Source: Phycisphaeraceae bacterium (GTDB lineage Bacteria > Planctomycetota > Phycisphaerae > Phycisphaerales > UBA1924). Taken from it: DNA of 64,000 bases. Location: NCBI GenBank assembly GCA_019636495.1, contig JAHBXL010000002.1, forward strand, positions 124,001-188,000. Reading direction: 5' to 3'. Position 1 is the first letter of the stretch; the number at the start of each line of letters is the position of its first letter. Below the pieces are notes generated by a model, which made no database searches, was not told the DNA's origin, and saw only the letters and a list, made by a program, of their open reading frames with translations. This document shows, piece by piece, positions 36,203 through 48,785 of this stretch. Made by a program: the position numbers and the translations under genes.

Positions 36203-37795
36203 CTACGGGCAGCCGGCAAACCACGCCGCGAGAAACGCGAAGATCGCGGGAACGCCCGGCGTCCCTCCGAACGCGAATGCCGCGGGCGCGCCCGCGAACC
36301 ATGCGGAAAGAAACGCGAAGATGTCGCCCACTTCGCGCTCGCCGTTGCCGTCAAAGTCGGCCGGACACGCCTCGGGATTGCCAAGCGAGCCGTCCGGGTT
36401 GACCCGCTGCGCATAGATGTTGCCCGAGTCGAGCCGGGTATCGGTCCATGCCACCGCGGCCGCGCCGGAAGAGAGACGAGCGGCATCCAGACGGGTCTTG
36501 GCGCTGGGGGCGGAACTGACAATCACCGGCGGCGATGTCCATTCGGCCGCGCCGTCGGCGTCGAGCGCGAAAGCATGAACCGCGCCGGCCGCGCCGCAGC
36601 AGTTGGCCAGGGTGTAGACCTCGACGCCGCCTCCGGCTCGGGCCAGTGCTGCCGTGAACGAGCCCTGTGTTGTCGAGATCGGCAGGAGTTCGATGCCGTT
36701 GTCGCCCCATGCGCGCACACCCTCGTCCGTGATGCGTTGGGCGTACATCGCCCACTGGCTCTGGGCCGTGTTGGACTCAATCCATGCGACATAGGCATCG
36801 CCCGAAGCGGCGTCGAACGCGAGCGCTGCGCCGAGTTGGTTCCGCGCTGCCTGGATCGACACCGACACGCCGTTGTGGGGGAACAGTTCCGTGCCGCCCG
36901 ACGAAATGCGCTGCACGTAGGCATCGCGGTTGCCGCCCGTCTCGTACCACGCGAACACCGCGCCCCCCGCGCCATCCGGCACAAACGGCGGGAAGTAGCC
37001 GTTCTGCAGCGAGGTCCCGTCGAACACGATGACCGGGTCCATGATGACCGGAGTCGCCGGCACACGGTCCCACTGCGCCATGCCCGTGGCATCGAGTTTC
37101 TGGGCGTACAGGTGCTTGTTGGAGGTGACGCAGTTCGACCCCGCGCACCGCACCCAACTCACAATCATCGCGCCGCCCGGCGCTGGCTGGATGTCGCAGA
37201 GGTTGTACGGTTGGCCCGCCTCCGACAACACCACCGGCCCGGGCCAGATGCTCTCGCCATCGGCATCGAGTTTGTGTACGTGCACCGACAACGGCGATGC
37301 GGCGGACCACGCCACCGCGATCCCGCCGTCGTCGAGCAGCGCCAACTGCGGCGGCCCCTTGAACCCTGCCTGTGCCCCGCTGGCCTGAACGGCCCACAAT
37401 GCCGCGCCCCCGGGCGAGAGTTTGTGCACGCTGATCGGCGAGTTGCCATTCACATCGTCATTGAACGCGATGATCACGTTGCCCGAGGCATCGACCTGCG
37501 CATCGAAGTCCTGCGTGCTGGAGACCGAACGGTCGCGAACGAGCACACCGTTGCTCGGCCAGATCGCGTTTCCCTGGGCATCGAGGCGCTGCACGTACAC
37601 GTCGTAGCCCCCCGCCGAGTTGTCGAACCACACGATCACGCACCCGCCATCCGGCGCGGCGCGGACCTTGGGCTGGACCTGCTCGCCGGATCGGTCCGCG
37701 ATCGTGGTGTTCGCGGCGTGATCGCTCGTCCACTGCGCAGGTGCAGAGCCGGCCGCAAGAGCCACAACAACACCGGCGGTCATCAACTGTCGCAT
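36203..37795 (-). CDS. secreted protein with GC-type dockerin-like C-terminus
   Basis: 530 residues. Signal peptide (MRQLMTAGVVVALAAGSAPAQ), then repeated beta strands of about 50 residues with YVQRLDAQGNAIWPSNGV, HKLDADGESIWPGPVV and YAQRITDEGVRAWGDNGI. These are typical of a beta-propeller-like surface protein. The last 60 residues are the dockerin-like tail CPADFDGNGEREVGDIFAFL ... FGGTPGVPAIFAFLAAWFAG. ATG 37795 is chosen because GAGGAGAG lies about 7 nt upstream. Exported; ligand unknown. Confidence 0.83.
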   Translation of the reverse strand: MRQLMTAGVVVALAAGSAPAQWTSDHAANTTIADRSGEQVQPKVRAAPDGGCVIVWFDNSAGGYDVYVQRLDAQGNAIWPSNGVLVRDRSVSSTQDFDAQVDASGNVIIAFNDDVNGNSPISVHKLSPGGAALWAVQASGAQAGFKGPPQLALLDDGGIAVAWSAASPLSVHVHKLDADGESIWPGPVVLSEAGQPYNLCDIQPAPGGAMIVSWVRCAGSNCVTSNKHLYAQKLDATGMAQWDRVPATPVIMDPVIVFDGTSLQNGYFPPFVPDGAGGAVFAWYETGGNRDAYVQRISSGGTELFPHNGVSVSIQAARNQLGAALAFDAASGDAYVAWIESNTAQSQWAMYAQRITDEGVRAWGDNGIELLPISTTQGSFTAALARAGGGVEVYTLANCCGAAGAVHAFALDADGAAEWTSPPVIVSSAPSAKTRLDAARLSSGAAAVAWTDTRLDSGNIYAQRVNPDGSLGNPEACPADFDGNGEREVGDIFAFLSAWFAGAPAAFAFGGTPGVPAIFAFLAAWFAGCP

Positions 37796-38024
37796 GGACT
37801 CTCTCCTCAAACGTCCCCACGGGGCACGGGACGCGGTCCAGCAAGCGGTACGCGAATGAACGCACCGGTGTTTCGCATTCGCGCTCCGGACGAGGCGATT
37901 CCGCCGAGGTCAAGCGGGGTTTCCCGATGGATCCTGGGGGTCGGGGCGCCAAGCCGTGCACGATCCGCGGCTGGCCGCGCCGCATGAGACTCGGGGAGTG
38001 CCAGAGACCGAGCGGTGCGCCGCA

Positions 38025-42084: not shown

Positions 42085-42116
42085 CGGGCCGCGCTCAGTC
42101 GCGGCCCGTTTTCTTT
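42085..42116 (+). terminator. rho-independent terminator of the PEP-CTERM-like gene
   Basis: CGGGCCGCG-CTCAGT-CGCGGCCCG followed by TTTTCTTT. The hairpin overlaps the last codons and stop of the convergent B12-sensor gene, so the two genes share this DNA. Confidence 0.85.
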
Positions 42117-43213
42117 GCAGCGGGACAAAGTTGGCCGGCGATCCGCAGGCCGTCATCGATGTTCGCCGCGAAGCCATCCGCCCCAAACCGTCGCCACAGC
42201 GGGTCCGCCTCAGACTCGCACGTGCCGGCAAACCCGCCGCCACCGACCATGATCTTCACCTGTCGGCCGCGGCCGGCCGCACGCACCGCTTCGATCGTCC
42301 GGGCCACAGCGGGCAACTGGCTGCCCAGCCCCGCCGACACGCACAGAAGGTCGGCCTCGAACATGTCCACGGCCTGCGCAAGGTCCTCGGCGGGCACGCT
42401 CGCCCCGAGATACACCACGCGCCAGCCCTCGGCCTCGAGCAGGTCCGCCAGCACGCGAACACCGACATCGTGGGCGTTGCCCTCCACCGAGGCCGCAACC
42501 GCGACCAGACCGTTTCGCGGCGAGAACCGCAGCATCGAGAACAACTGCGAGACGACCATCTGCGTCGTTGCCGTCGCGAAGTGCTCCTCGGCGACCGTGG
42601 CCTCGTTCAGGTGCCACATGCGTCCCAGTTCGATCTGCGCGGGCACCAGCACATCGAGAAGGAGACTTCGCACCGGCAACGCCGCCGAGCCGTCATCCCC
42701 TCGCGCGGCATCGAGAATCAACATTGCGGCAGCGCGCCGGTCGCCCTCCAGCACCGCCGCAAGATACCGGCTGATCAGCCGACCGATGCGCGTGCTCGCA
42801 TCCATTGGAGGCGCAGGGTTCGGCGGCGAAACACGGATCGAGTCGATCGCGTGGTCGACATAGGTCGCGGCGAGCCGCGCCGCCTCCGGCGGCAACTGCT
42901 CGCAGATGACATCGCGCATGCATTCCAGCGACGCCGAAAAGGCCAAAGCAGCGGGTTCGCCCCCCCGACTCGCATACGCCGTATGCGCCCATCGCGCCTG
43001 CTCGACGAACACCCTCGGGCAAGCCGTGCTCACTGCCGCCGCAAGGAACGGCAGCCGCGACGACACACACTCCCGCCAGGTGCGGACCGCATCGGCCCGA
43101 TGCTCCGAACGCACCGCCGCCCGCTCATTGACGAGTTTGTCGGCTGCCATCGCGGCAATGCCCGAAGCGCTGGCGTTAAGCAGTTCGGCGACCATGTGTC
43201 CGCTGGAAATCAT
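42095..43213 (-). CDS. stand-alone CarH-like cobalamin-binding sensor without DNA-binding domain
   Basis: 372 residues. From about residue 160 it has the four-helix bundle plus Rossmann B12-binding unit of CarH/LitR photoreceptors. The CarH signature W-x9-EH is exact: Trp200, Glu210, His211 (MWHLNEATVAEEH). The lower ligand His248 lies in GNAHDVG (Asn where CarH has Glu two residues before). Other B12 motifs are VRVLADLLEAEGWRVVYLGASVP and KIMVGGGGF. CarH proteins start with a MerR helix-turn-helix; here the first 150 residues are a different helical domain (ERAAVRSEHRADAVRTW ...) of unknown type. It may pass a light or B12 signal by protein contact. Confidence 0.83.
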   Translation of the reverse strand: MISSGHMVAELLNASASGIAAMAADKLVNERAAVRSEHRADAVRTWRECVSSRLPFLAAAVSTACPRVFVEQARWAHTAYASRGGEPAALAFSASLECMRDVICEQLPPEAARLAATYVDHAIDSIRVSPPNPAPPMDASTRIGRLISRYLAAVLEGDRRAAAMLILDAARGDDGSAALPVRSLLLDVLVPAQIELGRMWHLNEATVAEEHFATATTQMVVSQLFSMLRFSPRNGLVAVAASVEGNAHDVGVRVLADLLEAEGWRVVYLGASVPAEDLAQAVDMFEADLLCVSAGLGSQLPAVARTIEAVRAAGRGRQVKIMVGGGGFAGTCESEADPLWRRFGADGFAANIDDGLRIAGQLCPAAKKTGRD

Positions 43214-44575: not shown

Positions 44576-46705
44576 TTACGGGCACCCCGCGAACCACGCG
44601 CTCAGATACGCGAAGATGTCCGACACCGCCGGCGGGCCGCCGCTGTTGTCAAAGTCGGCGTATACCGACCCGGCGAACCACGCGGCAAGGAACTCGAAAA
44701 TGTCCGAAACGGTTGCCGCGCCATCGCCGTTGAAGTCGGCATCGCACTCGAACCAGAGTGTGACGGTCTGCGGCGCAGTGGTGCCAAACGGCGATGTGAC
44801 GGTGAACTGGAACGAGTCGTTCATCATCGCCCCCGAGGGCGGCGACACGAGCACGGACGACCCCGAAACCGTCGCCGACGAGTGCGCCGGCGGCGAGACG
44901 ATCGTGTACTGCACGCTGACATGTGGATCGGGGAACACCGCGGGCAGTTCGGCGATCGCGCCGCGGTCGCGCCGCATGCGCTTGAGATACGAGTACGCCT
45001 GCGGCTGAACCGGGAACGGCGGCGTGCCCTCGCCGCTGATCGTGACCTCCGCGGGTTCGCTGATGGCCGAGCGGTTGCCGCGGAAGATCGCCTCGGCCTG
45101 CATCCTGACAACGCCCGGCCCGAGGTTGCGGCCGTACACCGTCAGGCTCGCCGAGGCGGATTGCGTCGCGGCGACGACGCGTCCGTTGGCAAGCAGACGA
45201 ACCTCGCGGACATCCGGCCCCGCGCCCGTCACGCCGAATGTGAGCGTGTCGTTCAGCGTGGCGGTGGTCACCGCCGGGGGGGTGATGCCCGCGAGCAGTT
45301 CGCGGTTGACCACGAAGATACTTGTCGACCAAGCGCGCGTGTGCCGTGCCGCGGTCGTGTCCCACGCCAGGATGCGCACGTCGTGCCATCCATCGGAAAG
45401 TTGACGGGTGTCGATGACAAAGTTGGCCGGCGGCGGCATCTCCGAGACGGGCACGCCGTCGATCAGCAGTTGCAGCCCCGCGATCTGCGCGTTGGACGCG
45501 GTCGCCTGCGCAGTCGGGGTGAGCGCAATCGAACCCGACACCGGCCCTGTCGGCGCGTTCGGCACGCTGAGGTTCGGGAGCCGCGAATACGGACGGGTCA
45601 GCGGGTCGCCGTACAGCAGGCCCTGGAACGGCACGAACTGAGCCGCGCGGAACCACGACTCGCCGATGGTCAACCCCTGCCGGTAGAACGCGTGGAACCG
45701 CGCATGCGGGAACTTGCCGGGGTAGTTGCACGGCTCTTCCACCGCGCCGAACGACCCGCTCGCGCCTGCGCGAATCCACGCGCTCACCTTCGTCTGGTCG
45801 AGGATGTCAAACGTCGCGGCGTAACTCGTCAGATGGTCCGCGAACGCGCCGGGCAGGAACACCGAGTTGGACGAAGGCCAGTCGAACGCCGCGATCCCCG
45901 TCATCACGCCCATGACGTTGGTCGCGTTCTGCGGCAGAACGCCGTTGACCGTCTGTGCCGTGCCGCCGAACGAACTGTTGATCGTCGTGACCACCGCCGA
46001 GTACTGCGTCGAACGCACGTTTCTGGCCGTGTCGGTCGTGTTCATGAAGTAGAACTGCCCGGCCGGAAGCGTGCCATCGGCCGCCACCGAACGATCGATC
46101 ATCGTCAGCAGTTCCGGCACGGTGTTGCCCTGCCCACCCGTATACCCGAGCAGGCCGGCGATCAGGTACCGCCGCGAAGAGCCGAGCGTCGAGACGTTGC
46201 CGTTCAGATACCGCGTCTGGGAATCAAACGCCGTGGGCACGTAACTGGATGCAAAGTACTGGTTTGCCGCCTGGCTGGAGACGGGGCCCGGGATGATGTC
46301 GCCCCGGATGAACGCCGTGGTGTAGCACGTGGGCAGGCTGAACCGGGTCACCGGCGAGCAGCCGTCCGTCACCAAGCCCGTTGCGGGAATGAAGAACCGC
46401 TGCGTCGGTGCCAGGACCACGCAATCGATGCTCGTCTCGACGCCGCGCCGAGCCAGTTCGCCGAACACCGCATCCAGATACACACCGAAATTCTGAAAGG
46501 TCGTCGGCGCGTGGTGCAGGTAGATCACGTGCGAAAGCGGGATGTTGCGCGCGCGGACATAGTGATGCCCGACCGCCATCGAGTCGGAGTCGGTCGGGTC
46601 GATGATGACGACCGTCGTCTCCGCCACCCCGTTGGCCCAGGTGGCCGGGCAGATCGCCAACAACCCCGCCGCGGCCAAGAGCCCCATTGCTCGCCCAATC
46701 CGCAT
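44576..46705 (-). CDS. TIGR03790-type secreted protein with dockerin-like tail
   Basis: 709 residues. The signal peptide is followed by the conserved opening AETTVVIIDPTDSDSMAVGHHYVRARNIPLSHVIYL, which is the mark of the TIGR03790 family of exported proteins found in planctomycetes, verrucomicrobia and acidobacteria; its function is unknown. The middle has GLLGYTGGQGNTVPELLTM and a segment ending FRAAQFVPFQGLLYGDPL. Three beta-sandwich-like regions follow. The tail is the short dockerin-like type: DFNGDGAATVSDIFEFLAAW ... AVSDIFAYLSAWFAGCP. An AGGAG lies 10 nt before the ATG. Confidence 0.85.
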   Translation of the reverse strand: MRIGRAMGLLAAAGLLAICPATWANGVAETTVVIIDPTDSDSMAVGHHYVRARNIPLSHVIYLHHAPTTFQNFGVYLDAVFGELARRGVETSIDCVVLAPTQRFFIPATGLVTDGCSPVTRFSLPTCYTTAFIRGDIIPGPVSSQAANQYFASSYVPTAFDSQTRYLNGNVSTLGSSRRYLIAGLLGYTGGQGNTVPELLTMIDRSVAADGTLPAGQFYFMNTTDTARNVRSTQYSAVVTTINSSFGGTAQTVNGVLPQNATNVMGVMTGIAAFDWPSSNSVFLPGAFADHLTSYAATFDILDQTKVSAWIRAGASGSFGAVEEPCNYPGKFPHARFHAFYRQGLTIGESWFRAAQFVPFQGLLYGDPLTRPYSRLPNLSVPNAPTGPVSGSIALTPTAQATASNAQIAGLQLLIDGVPVSEMPPPANFVIDTRQLSDGWHDVRILAWDTTAARHTRAWSTSIFVVNRELLAGITPPAVTTATLNDTLTFGVTGAGPDVREVRLLANGRVVAATQSASASLTVYGRNLGPGVVRMQAEAIFRGNRSAISEPAEVTISGEGTPPFPVQPQAYSYLKRMRRDRGAIAELPAVFPDPHVSVQYTIVSPPAHSSATVSGSSVLVSPPSGAMMNDSFQFTVTSPFGTTAPQTVTLWFECDADFNGDGAATVSDIFEFLAAWFAGSVYADFDNSGGPPAVSDIFAYLSAWFAGCP

Positions 46706-47045
46706 CGTGCTGCACTCCTGTGTCCTGACCCGCCGGATATGGGCGGTTCTCGGACTTCCCGCATGTCCGGCGCACCGGCCGCCGGGTAGTAGATTAACCG
46801 CGCCCGCACAAACGGCCAATAGCCGGAGCACAAGTGCACGGAATCGGTCCCGGTTCAGGTCCGAATTCCGCCAAATCGCACACTTTTCACGGACAGGAAC
46901 CTGCTCTCGTCCGTGGAACCGCGCACCGCAGGACGCGAACTGTTGGTATCGGCCGCCCCCATGTGGTAGGCTTTGGTTCGTCCGTCATTCGGTCCGGCTG
47001 CCGCGACCCTTCCGTCGCGGCACAGTTTCGAGGTTGGAGACACAG
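46706..47045. other. 340-bp divergent intergenic region
   Basis: Between the TIGR03790 gene and the deiminase gene. It holds the CCGCC/GGCGG hairpin around 46730-46746 and a weak plus-strand promoter (TTGGTA-18-TAGGCT, 46943-46972). I see no gene, riboswitch or repeat in it. Confidence 0.5.
46943..46972 (+). promoter_or_regulatory. weak promoter of the deiminase gene
   Basis: TTGGTA, 18 nt, TAGGCT. The deiminase ATG at 47046 is about 73 nt downstream and has a GGAGA ribosome binding site. Confidence 0.3.
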
Positions 47046-48785
47046 ATGCCCGATCGCCTCCCCCGCGCCACGAGGGTCGTTGCCGTTCTCGCCGCGGTTG
47101 GCCTGACCGCTGCGGCATCCGGCCAGCAACAGGCCGCGCAACGCAACCAAGCCGATGCCCCCCCCCCGCTTCCACAGCCTGAGTTCATCGACGGCCGGCT
47201 GGTGTTCCCACCTGCGACGGATGGCCCGGGCGTGCCCCGATTCCTGACCGATGCCGAGCGGCGCTATCTGGAACTGCACCCCTTGGTCGCGGAGCGCGAC
47301 GAGGGCGACGGGTTCGGCCTGCGGGGCCCGTATGTCTCGCCCTCGGGACCGATCCGGTGCCCGGGCGAGTATGAGCCAACCGACGGCATCCTGATCTCGT
47401 GGAAGAGTTTCACTTCGATCCTGTCGCAGATGGGTACGCGGATCACCAACGAGGGCCAGGCGAACCTGTACGTGTACTGCGACACGACCACCGTGCGCAA
47501 CTCGGCGCAGTCCAGCCTGACCGGTTCTGGCGCGAACATGAGCCGCGTGCAGTTCATCATCGCCAACACAGACTCGGTTTGGATCCGCGACTACGGCCCG
47601 CGCTACATCTACGAGGGCAACGTGCGGTCGATCATCGACCACACGTACAATCGAGTGCGACCCAATGACAACCTGATCCCCACGCATTTCGCCGGGTACA
47701 AAAACCACGCCAGGTACCTGATCCCGCTCATCCACGGCGGCGGAAACTACCACCTCAACGGGATCGGCGATGCGTTCGCCACGCGCCTGATCCGCAACGA
47801 GAATCCGACCCTGACCGAAGAGCAGATCATCGGGTATTGGAGCCAGTTCCAGAACGTAAACACGACGCTGACCGACGCATTCCCAACCACCGTCGATTTG
47901 ACTCAGCACATCGACATGTGGATGCAGGTGACCGGCGACCGCTCGGTCGTGGTCGCCGACTGGCCGGCGAACTCGGGCTCTGAGCAGGATGTCATCTGCG
48001 ACAACACCGCGGCACTTCTGACCAACGCAGGCTGGACGGTGGCACGCGTGCCGGGTCGCAACGTCTCGGGCGCGCATTATACCTACACCAACGTCGTCAT
48101 GTGCAACGACATCATCCTGCTTCCAACCTACACCAACACGACGATCGTCAACGCCAACTACAACTCCACCGCCCTCAGCACGTGGCAATCGCACATGCCC
48201 GGCAAGCAGATCTTCCAGATCAACTGCCAGACCATCGTCACCTCCGCGGGCGTCATGCACTGCATCGTCATGCATGTCCCCAGGCATCTGGGCGCGGCGG
48301 GGCCCAACGGCGGACTTGCGCCAACCGCCTACCTCCGCAACTTCCGCGGCGGCGAGAGTGTCTCTCCGGGCCAGGCCCAGACCATCCGCTACCTCAGCGA
48401 CGACGACGTGGGCGTGGCCAACGTCGACATCCTGCTCTCGACCGACGGCGGCGCATCCTTCCCCACGGTCATCGCCGCGGCCGTCTCCCCCACCGGCATG
48501 CGCACCTGGACGCCGCCCGACATCTACACCCCCAACGCACGCATCCGGGTGGTCGCGCGGGACGCGGCGGGCAACACAGGCTTCGACCAGTCTCCCGAGA
48601 ACTTCACCATCAACGGCACGCCCTGCCCGGCCGACTTCAACCTCGATGGCTACGCGACCGTGTCAGACATCTTCGCATTCCTCGCGGCGTGGTTCGCAGG
48701 CGACGACGCCGCAGACATCAACGGCGGCGGAATCGCCGTCGACGACATTTTCGAGTTCCTCGCGTCGTGGTTCGCCGGTTGCTGA
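47046..48785 (+). CDS. secreted porphyromonas-type peptidylarginine/agmatine deiminase with dockerin-like tail
   Basis: 579 residues. Signal peptide (VVAVLAAVGLTAAASGQ), then a PAD_porph domain: PGEYEPTDGILISWKS, the DSVWIRDYGP active-site Asp, HGGGNYHLNG, the DLTQHIDMW His/Asp motif and the nucleophile Cys in AGVMHCIVMHVPR. The enzyme family deiminates agmatine or peptidyl arginine; an exported form more likely acts on peptide arginine. An Ig-like domain (SVSPGQAQTIRYLSDDDVGVANV) precedes the short dockerin-like tail DFNLDGYATVSDIFAFLAAW ... VDDIFEFLASWFAGC. Convergent, 3 bp apart, with the next gene. Confidence 0.9.
   Translation: MPDRLPRATRVVAVLAAVGLTAAASGQQQAAQRNQADAPPPLPQPEFIDGRLVFPPATDGPGVPRFLTDAERRYLELHPLVAERDEGDGFGLRGPYVSPSGPIRCPGEYEPTDGILISWKSFTSILSQMGTRITNEGQANLYVYCDTTTVRNSAQSSLTGSGANMSRVQFIIANTDSVWIRDYGPRYIYEGNVRSIIDHTYNRVRPNDNLIPTHFAGYKNHARYLIPLIHGGGNYHLNGIGDAFATRLIRNENPTLTEEQIIGYWSQFQNVNTTLTDAFPTTVDLTQHIDMWMQVTGDRSVVVADWPANSGSEQDVICDNTAALLTNAGWTVARVPGRNVSGAHYTYTNVVMCNDIILLPTYTNTTIVNANYNSTALSTWQSHMPGKQIFQINCQTIVTSAGVMHCIVMHVPRHLGAAGPNGGLAPTAYLRNFRGGESVSPGQAQTIRYLSDDDVGVANVDILLSTDGGASFPTVIAAAVSPTGMRTWTPPDIYTPNARIRVVARDAAGNTGFDQSPENFTINGTPCPADFNLDGYATVSDIFAFLAAWFAGDDAADINGGGIAVDDIFEFLASWFAGC

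Follow-up and report, generated by a model that had tools for sequence, protein, structure and literature searches.

The window, a 64,000-nucleotide stretch of one contig from a Phycisphaeraceae bacterium, carries on its minus strand a 372-residue reading frame (42095-43213) whose translation has no internal stops. Either M1 or M7 is a candidate start of the protein, since both are conserved in the closest homologue. This relative comes from an uncultured Phycisphaerales genome and is 68% identical over the full length. The gene diverges from an M24 peptidase gene at a distance of 156 bp, converges with a gene for a PEP-CTERM-like protein, and is probably monocistronic. A promoter scan of the gene returned no sites and a PHROGs search with the protein no matches. 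Three genes of the window (36203-37810, minus strand; 44576-46831, minus strand; 46602-48785, plus strand) share a dockerin-like tail (ADFNGDG...VSDIFAFLSAWFAG, twice).

The 372-residue protein is a probable bacterial light sensor, judging from its sequence, in which a B12 module is joined to a globin-type domain akin to those that carry bilin pigments. Photoreceptors of this build, the photocobilins, have been described only recently. The features of the gene are:

42095..43213, minus strand: stand-alone photocobilin-type gene, 372 aa, globin domain and adenosylcobalamin (AdoCbl)-binding domain (ORF, Pfam, profiles)
42830..43213, minus strand: phycobiliprotein-like (photoglobin/bilin-binding) globin domain, residues 1-128 (profile against PDB; sub-threshold Pfam)
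43067..43069, minus strand: Cys49, at the position of the biliverdin anchor Asp270 of SasPcob, which is His in AbPcob (alignment)
42989..42991, minus strand: Trp75, aligned to SasPcob Trp296, invariant in 47 homologues (alignment)
42965..42967, minus strand: Arg83, aligned to AbPcob Arg297 (modelled biliverdin pocket), R in 42/47 (alignment)
42542..42775, minus strand: four-helix cap (B12-binding_2), residues 147-224 (Pfam; model pLDDT about 73-97)
42614..42625, minus strand: GxxW signature, G197-W200 (alignment of homologues and published signature)
42611..42613, minus strand: His201, in the column of TtCarH His132, which ligates cobalt from above in the bis-His light state (alignment)
42581..42586, minus strand: EH signature, Glu210-His211 (alignment of homologues and published signature)
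42227..42502, minus strand: Rossmann B12-binding domain, residues 238-329 (Pfam; Z 24.9 to 8j2w over 141-365)
42470..42481, minus strand: GxxH signature; its His248 is the predicted lower axial cobalt ligand (alignment and published signature)
42392..42406, minus strand: GxxxP signature, G270-P274 (alignment and published signature)

The C-terminal 225 residues are the Pfam pair B12-binding_2 (147-224, E 5.7e-12) and B12-binding (238-329, E 5.1e-21), both far above the cut-offs. The light-response signature of cobalamin-binding domains comprises GxxW, EH, GxxH and GxxxP, with W131, E141, H142 and H177 as the signature residues of TtCarH (PMC11796333); the Trp of GxxW packs against the adenosyl group. 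All elements are present in the 372-residue protein, as G197RMW200, E210H211, G245NAH248 and G270ASVP274. Among 27 full-length Phycisphaerales homologues G197/W200, E210/H211, H248, G270 and P274 are invariant and G245 nearly so, a degree of conservation far beyond chance, and across the whole phylum G197, W200, E210, H248, G270 and P274 occur in 47/47 homologues and H211 in 46/47. The first-pass annotation had described a CarH-type AdoCbl photosensor module, and the complete signature, invariant or nearly so in homologues, bears this out; W200, E210-H211 and H248 lie where it had placed them, with a Trp-His spacing of 48 against 46 in CarH (W131 to H177). The E/DxH motif of the photocobilin paper reads NxH here, with D, N or E at this place in the 47 homologues. 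The B12 half of the predicted structure is confident (pLDDT mostly 73-97) and superposes best on the photocobilin structures 8j2w, 8j2x and 8j2y (Z 24.6-24.9, rmsd 2.2-2.4, about 209 residues), with TtCarH ranking behind them at Z 19.8.

Within residues 1-140 no Pfam family reaches its cut-off, the single sequence giving Phycobilisome just under it (E 2e-4). A profile built from the 27 homologous N-termini was searched against all solved structures (PDB). Its best match was residues 227-319 of SasPcob 8j2w (E 2.2e-10), part of the C-terminal five-helix globin that is the biliverdin domain of that protein (PMC10979010), and its second was AbPcob, in the AbDPcob structure 8j2y (E 9e-5). Allophycocyanins and smURFP matched more weakly, as did a designed myoglobin near E 0.2. 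With a full-length profile 8j2w, 8j2x and 8j2y ranked top (E 1.5e-53 to 4e-46). By profile, then, residues 1-128 form a photoglobin domain. At the level of sequence both the identity of the domains and the signature residues are established. The earlier view that the N-terminal 150 residues are of unrecognised type has to be given up, the photocobilin globin being found at E 2e-10 (8j2w). Its suggestion of a profile search against RsbR-type domains came near, photoglobins and phycobiliproteins being relatives of the RsbR globin (PMC10151467). The absence of a MerR helix-turn-helix was confirmed, no helix-turn-helix family being found by Pfam on the protein, and a hidden N-terminal DNA-binding domain was likewise sought by Pfam on the protein and its 27 homologues and rejected. 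In the whole-protein model, where the alignment held one relative with the N-terminal domain, the globin half is poor (pLDDT 29-78). Modelled alone, the globin reaches pLDDT 65, and the top Foldseek matches of this weak model, mostly phycobiliproteins and SasPcob, are not significant (E 0.6-1.8).

Residues of the bilin pocket were compared using the numbering of the SasPcob paper, which equals the chain index plus 6 as fixed by the positions of Trp61 and Glu71/His72. The register of Asp270 and Cys49 was checked against AbPcob, whose His in place of Asp270 falls in the same column. The position is variable in the 47 homologues (D 10, N 6, H 6, A 5, E 5, Q 4, S 3, C 2, F 2). The Asp that anchors biliverdin is absent from the 372-residue protein; it is not a defining residue, as the founding member AbDPcob has His. 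Trp296 of SasPcob contacts ring D of biliverdin and the corrin (PMC10979010), and the invariance of its equivalent, Trp75, points to the same packing of globin against B12 half as in SasPcob, despite the swapped domain order.

On its upper face, the cobalt of light-state TtCarH is bound by H132, the residue following the signature Trp (PMC8221060). His201 occupies this column, which holds Gln in SasPcob, Tyr in AbPcob and His in 27/47 planctomycete photocobilins. The light state of SasPcob is water- or hydroxide-ligated. A CarH-like bis-His light state is a prediction for the planctomycete lineage, made from this alignment.

The source genome encodes a heme oxygenase, a source of biliverdin, and a cobalamin adenosyltransferase, and contains no phytochrome PHY domain. 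It has four genes with B12-binding domains including the photocobilin gene, among which no second CarH-like photosensor was recognised. One is a 1238-aa open frame that by its size is presumably methionine synthase; the other two, as read from their sequences, appear to be a fusion of a B12 domain with a MeaB-like GTPase and a B12-like protein lacking the ligand His. A B12-binding-like family (L144:8865-9569:-, also L112 and L113) carries a CGPSExEELG-type sequence where the ligand-His motif would stand, lacks W..EH and probably does not bind cobalamin. Second-tier matches, of which three sequences were read, suggest that it is present in most Phycisphaerales genomes.

The photocobilin gene occurs in 27 of 101 genomes around the source genome, one of them of the same genus. 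Of 294 genomes drawn from the whole phylum, 40 gave matches, most of them with both domains in line. Photocobilins are thus common in Planctomycetota and have a residue pattern of their own there; the type has been characterised from two proteins in PMC10979010. Two photocobilin frames (L160:1498-4053:- and L162:1495-3921:-) have long N-terminal extensions with internal repeats, 52% identical to each other over about 300 aa and without a Pfam match; these may represent either a new domain or an artefact of the reading frame.

The relatives also offer indications of the output. Two planctomycete proteins (L163:1435-3900:+ and L165:163-2556:-) continue from globin and B12 domain into HisKA-HATPase-REC in one chain and are apparent photocobilin hybrid histidine kinases. 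Elsewhere the photocobilin gene is separated by 17 bp from a preceding PAS-LuxR gene (L125:10092-10790:-), follows ECF sigma and RskA-like anti-sigma genes (L139:9143-10827:-), or follows genes for an ECF sigma factor and a Ser-Thr kinase-TPR protein (L126:4913-8313:+). Since SasPcob and AbPcob alter the activity of a separate enzyme through protein contact in vitro, these fusions and neighbours make a protein partner the best-supported output of the photocobilin in the window. The first-pass annotation had favoured a protein partner over DNA, and the lack of a helix-turn-helix together with the kinase fusions and the sigma/anti-sigma and PAS-LuxR neighbours of relatives speaks for the same choice. 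No partner gene adjoins the photocobilin gene in the window, the divergent neighbour being the M24 peptidase. Among the neighbours of 27 loci compared no conserved partner gene was found; the divergent M24 peptidase is common to three genomes, and the surroundings are kept only by the same-genus genome. In one related family (L129, L131, L134 and L138) the photocobilin gene follows beta-ketoacyl synthase and GH15-type glycosidase genes on the same strand, a cluster that occurs in that one other family, looks incidental and was rejected as a partner context.

Taken together, we put the probability at roughly 85% that the gene encodes a stand-alone photocobilin, globin first and CarH-like AdoCbl domain last, working by the following light mechanism. 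In the dark, His248 would keep AdoCbl base-off, with Trp200 and Glu210/His211 packing against the adenosyl group; this would favour dimers or higher assemblies and a globin closed, through Trp75, onto the edge of the corrin. Illumination with green light would break the Co-C bond, the adenosyl group would leave and the four-helix cap would move, changing both the assembly and the contact with a protein partner. Once the adenosyl group is lost, His201 could become the upper cobalt ligand, as in CarH. Should the globin hold biliverdin made by the heme oxygenase of the genome, the same step could also be set off by red light. The light response, bilin binding, oligomer switch and existence of a partner are modelled here on SasPcob, AbDPcob and CarH.

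Whether the globin binds biliverdin is uncertain. In phycobiliproteins the attachment Cys lies three residues before the Asp270-type position (inferred register), a place taken here by Trp46. With Cys49 in place of Asp and this Trp three residues earlier, the pocket may not accept biliverdin. A version of the photocobilin reading in which the globin no longer binds bilin, serving as a structural lid and partner-docking surface of a green-light sensor that uses AdoCbl only, is given somewhat less than an even chance. It accords with the N, H, A, E or Q found at the Asp270-equivalent position in most Phycisphaerales homologues, where Trp46 is common, and with several photocobilin genomes in which no heme oxygenase was detected. 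Loss of the Asp weakens biliverdin binding in AbPcob, and AbDPcob, with His at the position, has a biliverdin occupancy of about 20% only (PMC10979010). Against it, the pocket residues Trp75 and Arg83 are conserved, and the source genome encodes a heme oxygenase but no phytochrome that would use its product. In one relative, moreover, a heme oxygenase gene is part of the photocobilin cluster: in genome G011 the gene (L140:7591-8133:-) lies 10 bp downstream of a second-copy photocobilin and had been missed by the genome-wide scan. Counting against the main reading, that scan of the 101 genomes, which misses at least one heme oxygenase, gave no excess of co-occurrence with the photocobilin gene (Fisher p 0.49). 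More tentative, and rather doubtful as a whole, is a Planctomycetota sub-type with the globin first, the Asp mostly lost (Cys in the genus) and an upper His; light would lock its cobalamin in a bis-His state, as happens in CarH, and its globin, bilin-free or binding bilin differently (conceivably through Cys49), would signal to a kinase, sigma-factor or PAS-LuxR partner.

Readings outside the photocobilins fare worse. A light-independent corrinoid protein, serving a methyltransferase system as methyl carrier or sensing redox or B12 status, would fit the monomethylamine corrinoid protein 3ezx, which superposes on the B12 half at Z 22.8, and the NCBIfam MtgC/MtbC models, which are best among weak matches that all fall far below cut-off (63 bits against 370, 52 against 350). 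We regard it as improbable: the Trp-x9-Glu-His and GxxxP elements are invariant, the CarH/photocobilin signature is complete, a globin domain is present, and no methyltransferase gene was recognised beside the photocobilin gene in the window. Least probable of all, with hardly any weight left, is the earlier proposal that a B12 sensor of the CarH type is joined to a helical output domain of a new, unknown kind. The lack of a Pfam family above cut-off in residues 1-140 and an N-terminus unlike the MerR domain of CarH had favoured it. It is contradicted by the profile search that identified the globin, and in relatives the outputs are separate fused domains or genes, so the N-terminus belongs to the sensor.

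For the photocobilin reading, the planctomycete family provides a natural test of whether photocobilins can adopt the bis-His light state of CarH and whether the working of their globin depends on a bilin, and its kinase fusions and sigma-factor or LuxR neighbours are concrete candidate output partners.

Among known systems, AerR/PpaA (PDB 7TE2) likewise consists of a B12-binding domain on its own that targets a partner regulator, but has an N-terminal extension of about 40 aa where the 372-residue protein has a globin. It is also a weaker match to the full-length profile (E 2.9e-12 against 1.5e-53 for 8j2w). For a PpsR/CrtJ or photosynthesis linkage of the AerR/PpaA type, the adjoining genes examined were those for the M24 peptidase and the PEP-CTERM-like protein. 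The B12-dependent MerR photoreceptors TtCarH and CtMerR have the same complete AdoCbl light signature, with H132 of TtCarH equivalent to His201, whereas their MerR DNA-binding domain is replaced here by the globin. CarH is tetrameric in darkness and monomeric once illuminated. Photoglobin-B12 proteins couple a B12 domain to a phycobiliprotein-like globin in signal-transduction contexts, the same coupling as in the 372-residue protein. The photoglobin family is cited in PMC10979010 and PMC10151467. AbDPcob (photocobilin-diguanylate cyclase, PDB 8J2Y) has the same two sensor domains and also lacks the Asp anchor, with His at the Asp270 position and Tyr at that of His201; it differs in its GGDEF output and in having the B12 domain before the globin. 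Closest is SasPcob from Saccharothrix syringae (PDB 8J2W/8J2X; PMC10979010), likewise a stand-alone globin and CarH-like AdoCbl domain without an output domain, whose B12 half is 30% identical (Z 24.9) and which shares W-EH, the lower His and the Trp296 equivalent. Its B12 domain comes first and its globin last, the reverse of the order here, and it has Asp270 and Gln where the 372-residue protein has Cys49 and His201. The globin-first order is not new as an architecture, since photocobilins have been grouped by a B12 domain at the N- or C-terminus (Zhang et al. 2024, PMC10979010). The protein combines the four-helix cap and Rossmann fold, the light signature W-x9/10-EH with GxxW/GxxH/GxxxP, a phycobiliprotein-like globin in the same chain (by profile) and the Trp296 equivalent, as photocobilins do.
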